Shown: piece after piece, positions 7,767 through 60,956 of the stretch | Position numbering within the stretch: position 1 is the first letter of the stretch | How the letters are laid out: every line of letters starts with the position of its first letter | Assembly (NCBI RefSeq): GCF_014695975.1 | Contig: NZ_JACJPI010000012.1 | Span: forward strand, 62,001-126,000 | Direction: 5' to 3' | DNA from: Leptolyngbya sp. FACHB-321 | Lineage (GTDB): Bacteria > Cyanobacteriota > Cyanobacteriia > Leptolyngbyales > Leptolyngbyaceae | DNA: 64,000 bases | Made by a program: the position numbers and the translations under genes | Notes under the pieces: model-generated | Seen by the model: the letters and a program-made list of their open reading frames with translations, nothing else | Told to the model about the DNA's origin: nothing | Databases searched by the model: none

Positions 7767-8735
7767 ATGCAAGACTTTCGGAACTATTACGACATTTTAG
7801 GCGTGGCTAGAGATGCCACCGTTGACGAAATCAAAAAGGAATTTCGGCGGTTGGCGCGACAATTTCACCCTGATCTAAACCCTGGCAACAAGCAGGCAGA
7901 AGAGAAGTTCAAAGACATTAACGAAGCGTATGAAGTTCTCTCTGACCCCACAAAACGCGGTCAGTATGACCAATTCGGAAAGTTCTGGCAACAGCGAGGC
8001 TTCAAAGGTGGGCAGACAGCGAAACCGTCACGCGGTTGGGATGGACGGAGCGATCGCGCGGCTGATGACGTTGACTTTGGTGAATTTGACAATTTCAATA
8101 GCTTCGTCGATCAACTTCTGAATCGCCGTACCGCTAAAGAAGCCAACGCTGCCCGCACAGGCACACGTGACTACTACCAACCTGGCACCACCAAAACAGC
8201 CTACACAGTGCCACGAGCGACACGACGAGATGCTGAAGCACGACTGGCAGTGCCTTTAGAGAAGGCTTACACTGGCGGACAAGAACGGATTCGGCTGGAA
8301 GATGGACGATCGCTCGAAGTGAATATGCCGCCTGGTATGGTGACTGGACAACGCATCCGGCTGAAGGGACAAGGTGTTGCAGGCGGCGATTTATATCTCA
8401 AAATTGACGTTGCGCCCCATCCCTTTTTCCGGCTCGAAGGCTCCGACATTCAATGCCTGCTGCCCGTTACGCCTAGCGAAGCTGTTTTAGGTGGACAGCT
8501 TGAGGTACCGACACTAGACGGTTTAGTTAAAATGTCGATTCCTGCTGGTGTGCGGACAGGTCAACGCCTACGCCTTGCTGCTAAAGGCTACCCTACAGCA
8601 AGCGGCAGACGCGGTGATCAGATTGTCGAAATTCAAATTATGGTGCCACGCGACCCCAGTCCCCAAGAACGCGAGCTTTACGAAAAACTGCGCCAGCTCG
8701 AAACCTTTAATCCTCGTGCTGATCTGCCTGTATAA
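7767..8735 (+). CDS. dnaJ: DnaJ/CbpA-type J-domain co-chaperone
   Basis: J-domain protein of 322 residues that stimulates DnaK ATPase activity. The J-domain (about 4-70) has [20 protein letters not shown] and the essential HPD in QFHPDLNPG. It lacks the Cys-rich zinc finger of classical DnaJ, so it is CbpA-like. After a linker rich in charged residues (about 75-150) come two C-terminal beta domains, with [18 protein letters not shown] and [13 protein letters not shown] as landmarks. It lies 128 bases after dnaK3 on the same strand, and the two very likely work as a chaperone pair. The spacer contains CT-rich repeats with CTCCTGA units. Confidence 0.92.
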
Positions 8736-53188: not shown

Positions 53189-53312
53189 TCTCGACTTCGC
53201 TGTTGATAAGCTGCATTAAGCGAAGTCGAAATGCGCTCAGCCCTATGTATGGCTAGGTTGAGCGCAGTCGAAACCCGATCACTAAGTAGTGCTTACTTCA
53301 GCCCTCCTACTT
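53189..53312 (-). repeat. Dispersed intergenic repeat, copy B (reverse)
   Basis: Reverse copy of the family described at 2146-2272, with shared AAGTAGGAGGGCT, TAAGCACTACTTAGTGATCGG, TTTCGACTGCGCTCAACC and TGAGCGCATTTCGACTTCGC. It contains a 10-bp internal inverted repeat TCGACTTCGC/GCGAAGTCGA. Confidence 0.8.
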
Positions 53313-55374: not shown

Positions 55375-56134
55375 CTTAGGGGCGAGGTCAGGGCACTTTT
55401 AGGAGTTCTTGTGATTCTCTAGCTTAGTAATCAGACACCTAGCGATCGAAAAACTATCAGGGAACGAACAACCCCTTTAAACAACAAAAGCACTTTCTAA
55501 TGGCATATGGTCTGTTGATTGGAACAAACCATTGCTTTCTTAGGGGGTGCTTTGTGTTTCTTCTAAAAAAATTTATTTCATGGCTGTAGACTCTATCCTT
55601 TACAGCGGTTTAATTTCGTCTGCAATGCCCTTAAAATTTTAATAATCCTTTAGCTACAACTCGCGTTGTGTCTGCATTGCTACTACCAAGAGATAGGTAG
55701 TCTTCAATTTGGAGTTGTAATTTAACTAACACAGAGATTTTATAAAATACCTTAAGTAGGAGGGCTAGATTAAGCCCCATTGAGCGATCGAATTTCGACT
55801 GCGCTCGGTCCGCGTACGTACAGGACTGAGAGTATTTCGACTTTGCCCAAGGCACTTATAAAAAGTTGCGCCCAGCTGCTTATTTAACGGTAGGAAACGT
55901 TTAGTCATTGCCTGTCAAAAGTTAGAGGCTAGCAAAATAACGCCTATATACAATAAAAGCCTCAGGACAGCTTATAGAGGCTAGTAGAACTTGCCTGTAA
56001 ACAACGAGAAGCTTGTAGCTGAACATGTTTGAGACGTCGTATTACCACCTTGTTCAACTGTCCATACCCTTTTTGTAAAAGCGATTGAAAGCGTTGATGA
56101 TTCACTAGTTTTAAATTTTCTAATGGAGACAACC
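55375..56134. other. Spacer with dispersed repeat copy C
   Basis: About 760 bases between the BON lipoprotein and hemerythrin genes. It contains copy C of the dispersed repeat (55752-55850). AAAGCAC/GTGCTTT segments near 55485-55555 could pair at long distance. A minus frame of 74 codons lies over the repeat and is not credible. Confidence 0.6.
55752..55850 (+). repeat. Dispersed intergenic repeat, copy C
   Basis: Carries TTAAGTAGGAGGGCT, ATTAAGCCCCATTGAGCGATCG, TTTCGACTGCGCTC and GAGAGTATTTCGACTTTGC, matching the family at 2146-2272 and 53189-53312. Confidence 0.75.
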
Positions 56135-56730: not shown

Positions 56731-57600
56731 TTACAGTAGTGCCAATGCTTTTAAGCAACGGCGCGTGACTTGCATCCGTTTTGGTGCATCAGCCTCGGTG
56801 CGGAAATCAATGTTGGTAGCAAAAAAGTAAACATTTTTACCCTTCTCTAAGTAGCCTACAACCCATCCTGCTTGACGCATTGTTTTATTACCAAACCCAG
56901 TCCAGCCAGTTTTTGCTCTGATTGTGTAATCTGGCGTTTTTTCAATTATCAACATGTCTTTGACGATCGCCAGCGATCGCTCAGAGAACGGTAAATCATT
57001 TTTATAAAGGCGTTGGAGAAATTGAACTTGCTGTTGGGGTGTAATGCGGAGTTCGCCCTCCAACCAAAAATTATCAATTGCTGCTTTACTACCAATGGTT
57101 TGGTTGCCGTAACCCACTTGAGTAATCCATTTTTGCATCTGCTCGTGCCCCACTCGGCGGGCAAGCACCTGATAAAACCAAATGGCTGAAAGCTTCATTG
57201 CCTCTCTCATGTTTAAGTCGCGGTTCCACTCGGGTATTTGCCTTGGAATACCGTCCCATGTTAGAACAGCAACGTCATCAGCAATCACTTTTGTCTCAAG
57301 CGAAATCAGAGCATTGAGAATCTTGAATGTTGATGCAGGCAAAAAAGGGGTTGCATTACGCTGAGGATTGTGTTGATACGTGCGATCGCTCGTTGCGTCA
57401 TAAATCAGAGTTGAGCCTTCTACTCCCAAGTCTCGAAAGTGCTGGCTAAAATCGCTAGTTTGGGCAGCCGCGATCGCTCCTGAAGTCTTAGACTGTGCTT
57501 TTGGCATAGCTGAGCCAGCTTGCACAGTTTGAACGAGAACAGCAGTGATGCAACTTAATGCAATTAACTCTGTAGTACCCCTACGCCTTAATCGGTTCAT
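56731..57600 (-). CDS. Class D (OXA-like) beta-lactamase homologue
   Basis: Serine beta-lactamase family protein of 289 residues from ATG 57600, with an N-terminal signal sequence (ELIALSCITAVLVQTVQAGSA). The catalytic STFK is at 90-93. The SxV motif appears as SAI at 138-140, YGN at 164-166 and KTG at 230-232, so class D residues are essentially complete. It may hydrolyse beta-lactams or act on cell-wall substrates. The gene context is chromosomal, without mobile elements, which suggests an intrinsic gene. The frame extends to 57657. Confidence 0.9.
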   Translation of the reverse strand: MNRLRRRGTTELIALSCITAVLVQTVQAGSAMPKAQSKTSGAIAAAQTSDFSQHFRDLGVEGSTLIYDATSDRTYQHNPQRNATPFLPASTFKILNALISLETKVIADDVAVLTWDGIPRQIPEWNRDLNMREAMKLSAIWFYQVLARRVGHEQMQKWITQVGYGNQTIGSKAAIDNFWLEGELRITPQQQVQFLQRLYKNDLPFSERSLAIVKDMLIIEKTPDYTIRAKTGWTGFGNKTMRQAGWVVGYLEKGKNVYFFATNIDFRTEADAPKRMQVTRRCLKALALL

Positions 57601-57757
57601 AATATGTAAGAAACTTAAGTCTGAGCAGCCTTGAACTACAACCCAGCCTATTTTCATTCCGCTATATCAGGTGCTTAACTGTTCTTTTAATCAAAAAGAG
57701 AGCCAGGGCAATATAACTAGACAGTTTCACTTAATCACACTTTCAATCGTTAGTGCG

Positions 57758-58471
57758 ATGACTCCATTCCAACCTAAACGACGACAGTTAGTTTACACCG
57801 TTGGAGGGGCACTAGCTCTAACACTTTTGGGCTGTAATCAACGGGAGCAAGCAATGATAACACTCTATACTTTTGGCGACTCGATTCTTGATTGCGGACA
57901 CTACAACGAGTTTGGTGTGCATCCAGGGCAACTTCTGGTTCAGAATGACGATCGACTGTTTCCCGACTTTAAAGGTCAAGACCTCGCCTCACGTAGTTCT
58001 GCCCGCTTAGAACATCGTGCCTATGATGGCGCAACAGTTACACGTCTACCGGCTCAGACACAAGGGTTACGGGTTGAGGGAACGGCGCTCGCCCTGATCA
58101 CCGTGGGCGGTAATGATCTCTTGCAGGGACTGATTCAAGATACAGGCGCAGGGATAACAACCTTTGCTACTGCCCTCGACACGTTTGTGCAGCAGCTACC
58201 CATCCGTCCTGTGCTATTGGGCAATGTCTACGATCCTACATTAGGAGATGACAGCCGCAATTTTTCAGGGGTTGATCCAGCGATCGCCCGTAAGAACCTC
58301 CAACGTATGAATACTGCCATTCAACAAATTGCTACTCGTTACGGGCAATTGGTTGATCTTCATGCTCATTTTCTCCAGGGTGATCCATCCTGGTTTACAG
58401 CGACGATTGAGCCAAGCCTGCGAGGTGCCTCGGAAATACGGCGGGCTTTTCTTCCCTTTGTCCTAAGCTAA
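57758..58471 (+). CDS. SGNH/GDSL-type hydrolase lipoprotein-like
   Basis: Esterase-like protein of about 237 residues. The N-terminus (RRQLVYTVGGALALTLLGCN) looks like a signal with a lipobox Cys. The SGNH block I is TLYTFGDSILDCG (catalytic Ser), and block III is ITVGGNDLLQG with Gly and Asn. The usual C-terminal DxxH is not obvious, since the corresponding region reads TIEPSLRGASEIRRAF. The frame begins at 57671, and ATG 57758 fits a signal-peptide start. A start at ATG 57854 would give a cytosolic form. It converges on the flavoprotein gene. Confidence 0.85.
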   Translation: MTPFQPKRRQLVYTVGGALALTLLGCNQREQAMITLYTFGDSILDCGHYNEFGVHPGQLLVQNDDRLFPDFKGQDLASRSSARLEHRAYDGATVTRLPAQTQGLRVEGTALALITVGGNDLLQGLIQDTGAGITTFATALDTFVQQLPIRPVLLGNVYDPTLGDDSRNFSGVDPAIARKNLQRMNTAIQQIATRYGQLVDLHAHFLQGDPSWFTATIEPSLRGASEIRRAFLPFVLS

Positions 58472-58483
58472 AGCCGAATCACA

Positions 58484-59611
58484 TCAGTATTTAAGCGATG
58501 CCATGACTTCATTGTAGGGAACGACCCCTGCAACTGCATGGCTGACCTGTTGAGCGACACGGGGATTCTGTTTCATTAACCAAATGAGCAGATAATTCAT
58601 AAACGAAAATTTTCTGAATGCTTTGATGTTTAAACCAGCACGCAAATCGGCTTCAAAGTGAGATTCATACAGATATTGCCAGTTTTCTGCTGTCACAGCA
58701 GGAGTACGGCTCATGTTCACTGCTTGCGCGACATGAAAACCACTAAGGACAGCATTAGCAATCCCCTCACCTGTTAGTGGATCGGTCAAATTGGCTGCAT
58801 CACCAATCCGGAGCACCTTCCCATCAGCCACTTTGTTTCCTTTTTTAGCAGTTGCTAGGGGGAATACTTTAGGTGGTTGCTGACTCACTACTTTGCTAAG
58901 TAGCTGTTGGGCAGCTTCATTTTTTTGAATGAATTGTTTAAATAGTTGAATCACATTTATGTTTAGCGTCTGGTATTCATCGAGCCAAACGCCAACACCA
59001 ACATTCAATTTCACCAAATCGTGTTGTGTTGAGACAGGAAAGATCCAACCATAGCCATTTACACCTAAGCTGCGATCGAAATGAATTTGAGCTTCAGCCA
59101 ACGCTGTTTCAGATAAATCTTGGCGCTTCACCATCCAATAGGCTCGAATGGCGATCGCAGTCACTTCACCCGCAGAAACACCCCGCGCATCAATAATCGT
59201 ATCAAAGGCATCAAGTAAGCCCTGACGCTGCCAATCATTTTTGTGCACCGATTGGGTAAGAAAACAACAGCCTGCATCAATCGCTCTTTCATACAGGAGT
59301 TGATCAAACACAAGCCTGGGAATGCAATAAGCCTCCAGGTTTGTCGGTTCGCTATGAGAAATTTGATTGGAGACACCTAGGAAGAAATGGTGGATCGGGG
59401 CATACTCTGATGCTAATTTTCTAATGTCATGTGGGTAAATGCCCATCGTCGAAATAGATTGGATCGATTCAATACTGATGCCATCGCCACAGATTTTGTC
59501 TCTTGGAAACCCTTGTTTGTCAATCAAGGTAACATCATGCCCGCTTTTTGCCAGGTGATAGCCGGCTGAACAGCCAGCGGGTCCTGCACCAACGATCGCA
59601 ATCTTAGACAT
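58484..59611 (-). CDS. Geranylgeranyl-reductase-like FAD-dependent oxidoreductase
   Basis: Flavoprotein of 375 residues. The dinucleotide-binding loop is VGAGPAGCSAGYHLAKSG with Gly8, Gly10 and Gly13, followed by the family motif CGDGIS (Cys41). The FAD end is LRIGDAANLTDPLTGEGIANAV (Asp271, Gly281-Glu282-Gly283). The Cys motif and overall plan fit the geranylgeranyl reductase family, which reduces prenyl double bonds, though related enzymes hydroxylate or epoxidise. Its start lies 9 bases after the DUF2600 stop, and the ribosome site GAGG overlaps that stop (TGAGG), which indicates translational coupling. A role on the product of the neighbouring terpene synthase is an inference. Confidence 0.88.
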   Translation of the reverse strand: MSKIAIVGAGPAGCSAGYHLAKSGHDVTLIDKQGFPRDKICGDGISIESIQSISTMGIYPHDIRKLASEYAPIHHFFLGVSNQISHSEPTNLEAYCIPRLVFDQLLYERAIDAGCCFLTQSVHKNDWQRQGLLDAFDTIIDARGVSAGEVTAIAIRAYWMVKRQDLSETALAEAQIHFDRSLGVNGYGWIFPVSTQHDLVKLNVGVGVWLDEYQTLNINVIQLFKQFIQKNEAAQQLLSKVVSQQPPKVFPLATAKKGNKVADGKVLRIGDAANLTDPLTGEGIANAVLSGFHVAQAVNMSRTPAVTAENWQYLYESHFEADLRAGLNIKAFRKFSFMNYLLIWLMKQNPRVAQQVSHAVAGVVPYNEVMASLKY

Positions 59612-59620
59612 GATTCAACC

Positions 59621-60670
59621 TCAATGAGCGATTAGCAAACGGCTCCGAAAGAAAAAGGCTGCTGGCTCACCTGACCAGTGAATTAACTGCTTCGCCATCG
59701 TCTGTACCTCCTGTTGCCGTCTAACTTTCTTATCTGAAAGGTAAACTCCTAGTAATGCCTGATTAATTAATTGATGAAAGCGCGTATGCGGCAATTGAGA
59801 AACGCTTTTAGTTGCCTTCTGCATAAAGTGTTTAAAGCGTTCCAACATATCATCATAATTTTTGTAGTAGAAACAGAAGTTCAGATCTCCATTCACCCGA
59901 TCTTCTTCCTGGTCAATCAGATAGTCCAACAAAATATGCAATCCTTGCACCCAGGGGAAGTAACTATTTTTGACTTGCTCGATCAGACCATCTGATAATT
60001 TATGCTCAAAAGCATAAGCCACCAAGCAGAAAATGCCTAGAGTAGAGCCAGCACAAGCAGAAAATTCATACCACCGCATCTCAGGCAGTTGCGTCTGATG
60101 CAAGGCAAACCATGTTTTCAGGCGTGGTACTCGCTCTTCAACTCTGACGTGCTTGTGAACTTGTAAATCACAGTAGTAATGGGCTAGCTCATGTAAAGCT
60201 GGAGCGATCGTTGCATAATGCGGTAACTGACAAAGCACGTCCTGACAGGTTCGGACTAAGGCGTGTAAGTAGCCGCCATCCGCTTGATCACCGCGCATCC
60301 GGTAATAGTTTGTGTGCGGTGCTCCAGGTGTGAGTGCATCCACCAGGGATTCATGTAAGGCAGAAAAATCTTTGGGATCGAGCGAATCACTGCGATCGCA
60401 TAAGTTGTCTAAATAATCACTAATTGTTTGATACGCCACAATAAATTTGATGGCTTCCTGGCAATGCTGTTTAGCAAGCAAGCCATAAATGGAGCCACCT
60501 TCACAGTGAAATTGTTTTACCTCAAGACTGTCTAACGCTTGTTTGCGAAGCTCAGGATTTGGTATTTTCTGTGCTTGAAATTCCCAGCTTTTTAAGTAAC
60601 TCCGTACGGTTGGAATGACTTTAAGGCGAGTTTCTAACATCAACGTCCAGGGAGAAACCGGAATACTCAT
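59621..60670 (-). CDS. DUF2600 family terpene synthase-like protein (YtpB-like)
   Basis: Protein of 349 residues in the DUF2600 family. Bacillus YtpB of this family makes tetraprenyl-beta-curcumene from heptaprenyl diphosphate. Conserved blocks are IPNPELRKQALDSLEVKQFHC near residue 36 and FIVAYQTISDYLDNLCDRS (Asp85, Asp88, Asp92). Later come QVHKHVRVEERVPRL and MRWYEFSACAGSTLGIF, then LLDYLIDQEED, with further Asp/Glu residues that could bind the diphosphate via magnesium. It is first in the operon with the flavoprotein. The actual prenyl substrate in this organism is unknown. Confidence 0.85.
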   Translation of the reverse strand: MSIPVSPWTLMLETRLKVIPTVRSYLKSWEFQAQKIPNPELRKQALDSLEVKQFHCEGGSIYGLLAKQHCQEAIKFIVAYQTISDYLDNLCDRSDSLDPKDFSALHESLVDALTPGAPHTNYYRMRGDQADGGYLHALVRTCQDVLCQLPHYATIAPALHELAHYYCDLQVHKHVRVEERVPRLKTWFALHQTQLPEMRWYEFSACAGSTLGIFCLVAYAFEHKLSDGLIEQVKNSYFPWVQGLHILLDYLIDQEEDRVNGDLNFCFYYKNYDDMLERFKHFMQKATKSVSQLPHTRFHQLINQALLGVYLSDKKVRRQQEVQTMAKQLIHWSGEPAAFFFRSRLLIAH

Positions 60671-60956
60671 AAAAAATTAGCTTTCGGCGATCGCCCAACG
60701 TAACTGAACCTAGTGCTGTTACTTTAGAGAGGCTTCCACAGTTCACCCTCTTCATAGAGGCAGAGTTAAACACTTCTAATAATTCCTTTTGAAATGACAT
60801 AAATGATTTAGAACTTGAGAAGCGAAGAGAAGCATTCGTGAGTTGGGTAGTTGCCTCCTTTATAAGGTTTTCTGTAAACAGAGATGGTTCTACAGATAGA
60901 GGTGCCTTAAACAAGAGAACTAGAAGCTTATGAGTAGACGTTAGAGGGCGCTACTT

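Follow-up and report, generated by a model that had tools for sequence, protein, structure and literature searches.

DUF2600 enzymes have been studied in Bacillus, where YtpB uses a C35 prenyl diphosphate made by HepS/HepT and the product affects spore hydrophobicity (PMC11708026). The protein of the solved structure 5yo8, named BalTS, is described as a large-terpene synthase, and two aspartate-rich motifs, DYLDNLxD and DY(F,L,W)IDxxED, have been defined for the subclass (PMC7839719). Geranylgeranyl reductases (GGRs) form a second relevant group: active GGRs share an active-site cysteine and a YxWxFP motif, and a further motif is described as GGG in archaeal enzymes and as GEG in those of photosynthetic organisms (PMC6309074). 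Bsr, a GGR homologue in Myxococcota that has also been reported in several cyanobacteria, reduces the C-24 double bond of sterols and thereby provides a precedent for a GGR-type enzyme that tailors a cyclised terpenoid (PMC12004948). No cyanobacterial pathway pairing DUF2600 and GGR proteins was found in the literature searched, which for the most part did not include subscription papers.

In the window—the whole stretch of 64,000 nucleotides that was analysed—a DUF2600 gene is followed by the gene of a GGR-like flavoprotein (Table 1). An earlier note on this DNA had placed two minus-strand genes here, nine bases apart, with the ribosome site of the second overlapping the stop of the first; the open reading frames lie where it put them and the overlap is seen in the sequence, in which the stop codon merges into TGAGG and GAGG ends seven bases 5′ of the flavoprotein ATG. 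A nine-base gap likewise separates the genes in two related genomes (G408 and G893). Since order and strand are constant and the gaps measure 9–79 bases in the 11 complete pairs, the pairing is more than chance, and joint expression of both genes would be expected from this spacing. The pair is real and recurrent, and it is best understood as encoding two successive steps towards a large terpenoid, the second carried out by a GGR-like reductase. That it is a terpenoid operon in which a DUF2600 synthase step precedes reduction by the flavoprotein is considered reasonably probable.

Table 1. Features of the gene pair and its upstream region, in window positions
Feature	Position	Strand	Basis
DUF2600 (PF10776) large-terpene synthase gene (assigned by family), 349 aa, first of the pair	59621..60670	-	Open reading frame, ATG start, matches to PF10776 and BalTS (5yo8)
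First aspartate-rich motif DYLDNLCD, residues 85-92	60395..60418	-	Motif definition of PMC7839719
Second aspartate-rich motif DYLIDQEED, residues 249-257	59900..59926	-	Motif definition of PMC7839719
Stop codon of the first gene and nine-base junction with GAGG ribosome site for the second	59612..59623	-	Sequence reading
Gene of the GGR-like FAD protein (375 aa), second in the pair	58484..59611	-	Open reading frame, ATG start, profile searches, structure model
FAD-binding GAGPAG, residues 8-13	59573..59590	-	Translated sequence
CGDG, containing Cys41, the presumed GGR active-site cysteine	59480..59491	-	Aligned to CGDA of Sulfolobus GGR; role described in PMC6309074
YGWIFP (GGR YxWxFP motif), residues 187-192	59036..59053	-	PMC6309074, PMC12004948
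GEG motif, residues 281-283	58763..58771	-	Form reported for photosynthetic GGRs in PMC6309074
Upstream element, TTGAAC-N10-TTTCTA-like	60725..60746 (conserved stretch 60725-60760)	-	51 bases 5′ of the first start codon

It is close to certain that the product of the first gene belongs to the family of large-terpene synthases of the YtpB/BalTS type. The protein scores 494.3 bits against PF10776 (cut-off 25), covering positions 1–324 of the 328 in the profile, and BalTS matches its residues 1–343 (E 7.2e-125). It thus belongs to the family of YtpB and BalTS (tetraprenyl-beta-curcumene synthase) over nearly its whole length, and both aspartate-rich motifs, the first of which the earlier note had recognised within DYLDNLCDRS, are present here as in all 16 complete cyanobacterial DUF2600 sequences. 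An Anoxybacillus protein annotated as belonging to the tetraprenyl-beta-curcumene synthase family is about 60% identical. The genetic settings differ. In Bacillus, ytpB resides in the ytpAB operon and SqhC acts next (PMC11708026), and in Anoxybacillus the DUF2600 gene is preceded by an alpha/beta hydrolase gene, whereas the partner here is the GGR-like flavoprotein. The succession of a prenyl diphosphate, a DUF2600 enzyme and a further enzyme would be shared with the HepS/HepT–YtpB–SqhC pathway (PMC11708026, PMC7839719), from which the present system differs in that no HepS/HepT was found and a putative reductase replaces or accompanies the cyclase.

The supply of prenyl diphosphates narrows the range of substrates to be expected. 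The window's own genome (97% complete, in 91 contigs) harbors a single DUF2600 gene and two PF00348 matches. The first of these is best matched by TIGR02749, solanesyl diphosphate synthase (541 bits, cut-off 383), and the second by CrtE NF045685 (568 bits, cut-off 460); the HepT model reaches 270 bits against its cut-off of 456, and neither HepS nor HepT was found in this genome. Two PF00348 matches are also the rule in 14 of the 15 genomes tested, the remaining one (G408) showing three, with one gene apparently split, and their number is independent of DUF2600. Solanesyl diphosphate (C45) is the precursor of plastoquinone, and the C35 substrate of YtpB is that of menaquinone. Since the synthases for solanesyl and geranylgeranyl diphosphate are the only ones identified in the genome, the C35 compound used in Bacillus is probably not the substrate, and this inventory predicts C45 or C20 instead.

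The flavoprotein carries three published marks of GGRs (Table 1), among them the CGDG motif that the earlier note had named together with the GGR-type FAD motif. CGD, YxWxFP, and GEG are present in 12 of 12 orthologues, one of which reads YGWLFP; the GxGxxG motif is disrupted in the orthologue of G879 (GAGPAR), and the corresponding segment is shortened in that of G1020. The score against PF22578 (GGR_cat) is 27.2 bits, just above the cut-off of 27. Among NCBIfam models the best match is TIGR02032, ‘geranylgeranyl reductase family’ (146.9 bits, E 1e-42), for which the protein remains under the family cut-off of 158.8. Identities as ChlP/BchP (TIGR02028, 36.8 bits against an equivalog cut-off of 505.3), as MenJ (83.8 bits against 700) and as archaeal lipid reductase (far under the equivalog cut-off) were considered and rejected, and the first of these scores weakens the objection, anticipated in the earlier note, that the flavoprotein works on chlorophyll. 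Identity to GGR-family paralogues is 20–25%. With TaGGR, SaGGR, and TIGR02032 the flavoprotein shares the fold, the active-site cysteine, and YxWxFP, and its GEG is that of photosynthetic GGRs. It differs from TaGGR and SaGGR in identity (17–20% in structural alignments), in the stretch from YxWxFP to GxG (GVG here), which spans 12 residues compared with 7–8 in archaeal GGRs (PMC6309074), and in DARG, which replaces ADG. This DARG (residues 141–144) is invariant in 12 of 12 orthologues, and its arginine stands where 11 of 13 paralogues have the aspartate of ADG. The resemblance to Bsr, drawn from its published description, lies in the proposed tailoring role; Bsr acts on sterols, whereas the protein described here is partnered by a DUF2600 synthase (PMC12004948).

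The better structure model places the flavoprotein fold closest to solved GGRs, with halogenases near. In this second of two models (mean pLDDT 82, pTM 0.85, alignment of 26 sequences) the nearest solved fold is TaGGR (3oz2; Z 33.7, rmsd 2.9, 340 residues), followed by SaGGR (3atq; Z 31.8, rmsd 3.1, 346 residues) and by the first halogenase, the chlorinase Mpy16 (Z 31.0, rmsd 3.5, 345 residues); rows within one Z unit count as tied, and SaGGR and Mpy16 are therefore not separated. A profile search likewise gave TaGGR as the top solved match (E 6.5e-41), with the halogenase CmlS at E 1.5e-28. The alignment behind both the search and the second model contains GGR-family paralogues and makes both lean towards GGR. 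The Foldseek ranking of the second model was mixed, with an indole monooxygenase on top, and the first, poorer model (pLDDT 62) did not tell GGR, halogenase, and hydroxylase folds apart.

Membership of the same fold class would also accommodate an oxygenase that epoxidises or hydroxylates a large terpene in the manner of squalene epoxidase, a cyclase of the squalene–hopene type encoded elsewhere perhaps finishing the rings. Squalene epoxidase is indeed among the structural matches (Z 27.9, rmsd 3.6, 352 residues), and a gene of the squalene–hopene cyclase type occurs both in the window's own genome and in all 15 genomes tested. The GGR entries, however, lie 3.1–5.8 Z units above squalene epoxidase, and the orthologues retain the GGR marks throughout. 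The ADG motif has a role in monooxygenases, and it is this motif that DARG supplants. Nor does the cyclase track DUF2600: seven of the 15 genomes have DUF2600 and eight lack it, and its presence in all eight of the latter excluded it as a specific partner. Taken as a whole, the oxygenase reading appears distinctly unlikely. The earlier note had proposed that the pair makes and then reduces, hydroxylates, or epoxidises a long-chain terpenoid; because motifs and fold favour reduction, that range was too wide. Reductase chemistry is thus the likely activity of the flavoprotein, judged from its motifs and modelled fold, and hydroxylation or epoxidation is less likely.

The finding that the flavoprotein adjoins the DUF2600 gene in other genomes removes one objection to a joint pathway, which the earlier note had itself named. 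The pair is nonetheless rare. In a phylum sample, DUF2600 was detected in 2 of 386 genomes, and the same two, and no other, carry the flavoprotein at E 1e-30. In the family sample, seven of 42 genomes have DUF2600 above the cut-off and an eighth shows a weak, broken match; the flavoprotein occurs in five of the 42 at 74–100% identity, all five being among the seven DUF2600 genomes, and the remaining flavoprotein matches do not exceed about 32% over long stretches, reaching more only over short FAD-binding ones. No flavoprotein without DUF2600 was seen among these 42 genomes. The class sample, which includes all seven genomes of the window's family, contains DUF2600 above the cut-off in 17 of 388 genomes, a frequency that differs from that of the phylum sample; part of its loci was compared by the rows of two queries, G000 and G414. 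Adjacency is conserved, as the survey suggested in the earlier note reveals: in 12 of these 17 cyanobacterial DUF2600 genomes the flavoprotein gene follows immediately downstream in the same orientation (G000, G185, G408, G414, G879, G880, G892, G893, G927, G1020, G1023, and G1045, the last partial in both genes owing to a contig edge and a 138-aa open frame). The 12 genomes span eight family labels (f1, f5, f18, f23, f26, f50, f52, and f53). As to the other five, G403 has both genes on separate contigs of 5.7 Mb and 263 kb, no flavoprotein orthologue was found genome-wide in G404 and G409, and none was found in the 19.5 kb read in G942 and G995 (about 9 kb on each side of the DUF2600 gene). 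With five of 17 genomes having no adjacent flavoprotein, the synthase can probably work alone. In G403, G404, and G409 (loci L048, L050, and L047, respectively) the DUF2600 gene occupies a common neighbourhood, two genes from a gene judged by eye to be ispF.

Outside the cyanobacteria the pairing was not encountered. At 35 DUF2600 loci, flanks of about 1.5 kb contained no relative of the flavoprotein; five of these loci come from the phylum to which a deltaproteobacterial MAG belongs (247 genomes) and 30 from the Geomicrobium phylum, taken from 77 DUF2600-matching genomes among 199. Among the four loci with longer flanks (L003, L004, L005, and L043), L004 alone gave a match, in which 33 residues of a FAD-binding stretch align some 8 kb off. 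Flavoprotein matches were weak or absent in three non-cyanobacterial DUF2600 genomes searched, no relative was found on viral contigs, and the plasmid search yielded no close flavoprotein but 8 records, every one below 60% identity. Of the five loci in the phylum of that MAG, two have a different FAD protein, HI0933-like by eye from its N-terminus, beside DUF2600 (L061, 2673–3986; L062, 2626–3987). Two further cyanobacterial traces of DUF2600 stand apart. A mobilizable plasmid of Calothrix sp. NIES-4101 (plasmid4, L042) bears a truncated DUF2600 frame of 156 aa at 7929–8399. A phage integrase gene lies within a few kb of it, and the 16 kb read contains no match to the flavoprotein. On a 3.7 kb contig of G423 (L051), a weak match to DUF2600 at about 2800–2955 is interrupted by two stop codons and is perhaps a relic; neither a flavoprotein match nor a BLAST match to cyanobacterial DUF2600 proteins was found on this contig.

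Gene identities, motifs, conserved pairing, and the inventory of prenyl synthases suggest the following chemistry, step order, chain length, product, and function. First, the DUF2600 enzyme, with its group-I-like fold, would ionise an all-trans prenyl diphosphate by means of its two aspartate-rich motifs, cyclising the head or releasing a linear product and leaving a long unsaturated tail. The substrate would most likely be one that the cell already makes, either solanesyl diphosphate (C45) or geranylgeranyl diphosphate (GGPP, C20). In a second step, the GGR-like FAD reductase would saturate one or more double bonds of the synthase product, and the expected outcome is a membrane terpenoid that is partly saturated and very hydrophobic. 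The reverse order is also conceivable, with the flavoprotein reducing GGPP or solanesyl diphosphate and the DUF2600 enzyme cyclising the partly saturated chain. Characterised GGRs are described as reducing prenyl diphosphates while sparing the alpha unit, so that an allylic diphosphate remains for a synthase (PMC6309074). The distribution of the genes speaks against this order, since DUF2600 persists alone in G404 and G409 and the flavoprotein never occurs without it in the family sample, an asymmetry that better fits a tailoring enzyme; the position of the synthase gene in front is a weaker point in the same direction. Reduction ahead of the synthase is accordingly regarded as unlikely.

Across 11 genomes the distances of the two partners are correlated (r 0.94, Mantel p 0.0001), which joint descent or joint transfer may suffice to explain; the unlinked G403 was left out of this test, and the partial G1045, G423, and Calothrix sequences were left out of the motif and distance set and of the larger tree. 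In this larger tree of DUF2600 proteins (16 cyanobacterial and 14 other, the latter comprising 12 of the 35 non-cyanobacterial loci, Anoxybacillus, and Geomicrobium) the paired G880 and G1023 form one branch and the remaining 14 cyanobacteria another, and all cyanobacterial proteins fall on one side of a branch with weak support (70/39). In an earlier tree with seven cyanobacteria their grouping received 100/99; it was built without L003 and L005, which duplicate L059 and L060, and the 156-aa Calothrix fragment was omitted from all trees. Those lacking an adjacent partner are the G942 protein and, nested as one group (100/99), the proteins of G409, G995, G403, and G404. We infer that the pairing is old and has been lost or broken at least twice. 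A case of loss is seen within the genus of the window. G418 has no DUF2600 or flavoprotein match of its own, and its counterpart of window 56731–58541, conserved in two aligned pieces, joins directly to that of 59535–59716; what is left as a relic is the flavoprotein gene's two ends together with the final part of the DUF2600 gene, the middle being missing. The lineage of both species therefore once carried the pair at this site, and one of them lost it.

Close pairs also occur in different families: the DUF2600 proteins of G414 (f1) and G892 (f23) are 93% and their flavoproteins 95% identical, which suggests that the pair moves horizontally as one unit. The flanks of paired loci share little else. 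No third conserved gene was found in the flanks read, three of the 12 paired loci being contigs of only 3.6–5.3 kb, and flank matches are otherwise few, connecting G414, G880, and G1020 (histidine kinases by eye) and, weakly, G880 and G927. Joint transfer, likely because the pair sits in differing neighbourhoods, raises the question of whether the flavoprotein merely travels with DUF2600 on a mobile segment, being itself halogenase-like or taken from a quinone, chlorophyll, or sterol side chain pathway. The proximity of Mpy16 in fold and of CmlS in profile is compatible with such an origin, as is the report of the sterol side chain reductase Bsr in cyanobacteria (PMC12004948). Flavin-dependent halogenases, however, carry WxWxIP according to a source concerned mainly with tryptophan halogenases (PMC10696468), and by eye this motif is absent from the translation, which has YGWIFP instead. 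The ChlP and MenJ scores lie far under their cut-offs, and hitch-hiking leaves unexplained the co-presence of unlinked genes in one genome, for which G403 is the single case. A mere passenger is the least probable of the alternatives considered.

The conserved pair, read as synthase and reductase, points to an undescribed lipid pathway in cyanobacteria. A more specific proposal, that a mobile operon with a dedicated new GGR subfamily yields undescribed partly saturated C45 terpenoids from solanesyl diphosphate, is possible though doubtful; such compounds would be to cyanobacteria what the C35 sesquarterpenes are to Bacillus and would tie a membrane lipid to the plastoquinone precursor pool. 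A two-gene unit recurring in eight cyanobacterial families would mean that large-terpene chemistry extends past Bacillus and can bring its own reductase. The pair also constitutes a small, testable pathway, in which the substrate of a GGR-like subfamily can be guessed from its partner.

Several minor features surround the pair. A stretch resembling TTGAAC-N10-TTTCTA is found 5′ of the DUF2600 gene in related loci as well, about 35–60 bases before the start codon. The pattern scores at least 10 of 12 in seven of 16 loci, the remaining nine being unremarkable; it was derived from six of the seven, and the seventh, G927, matches it 12/12, a score reached by 0 of 300 shuffles. A promoter or regulator site is possible. 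Downstream, a GDSL lipase-like gene (57671–58471, plus strand) converges on the pair, and a class D beta-lactamase-like gene (56731–57657, minus strand; NF012161, 284.6 bits, cut-off 250) lies beyond it, both being kept in G418, the latter at the same place. No known RNA family was detected at gathering thresholds in the window. A dispersed repeat of about 50–130 bp occupies 55738–55882, with further copies near 2145–2226 and 53200–53312 and at least 32 copies on many contigs, which make up all but one of the 33 own-genome matches listed; compared with shuffled versions, its folding is somewhat better (z −2.2).
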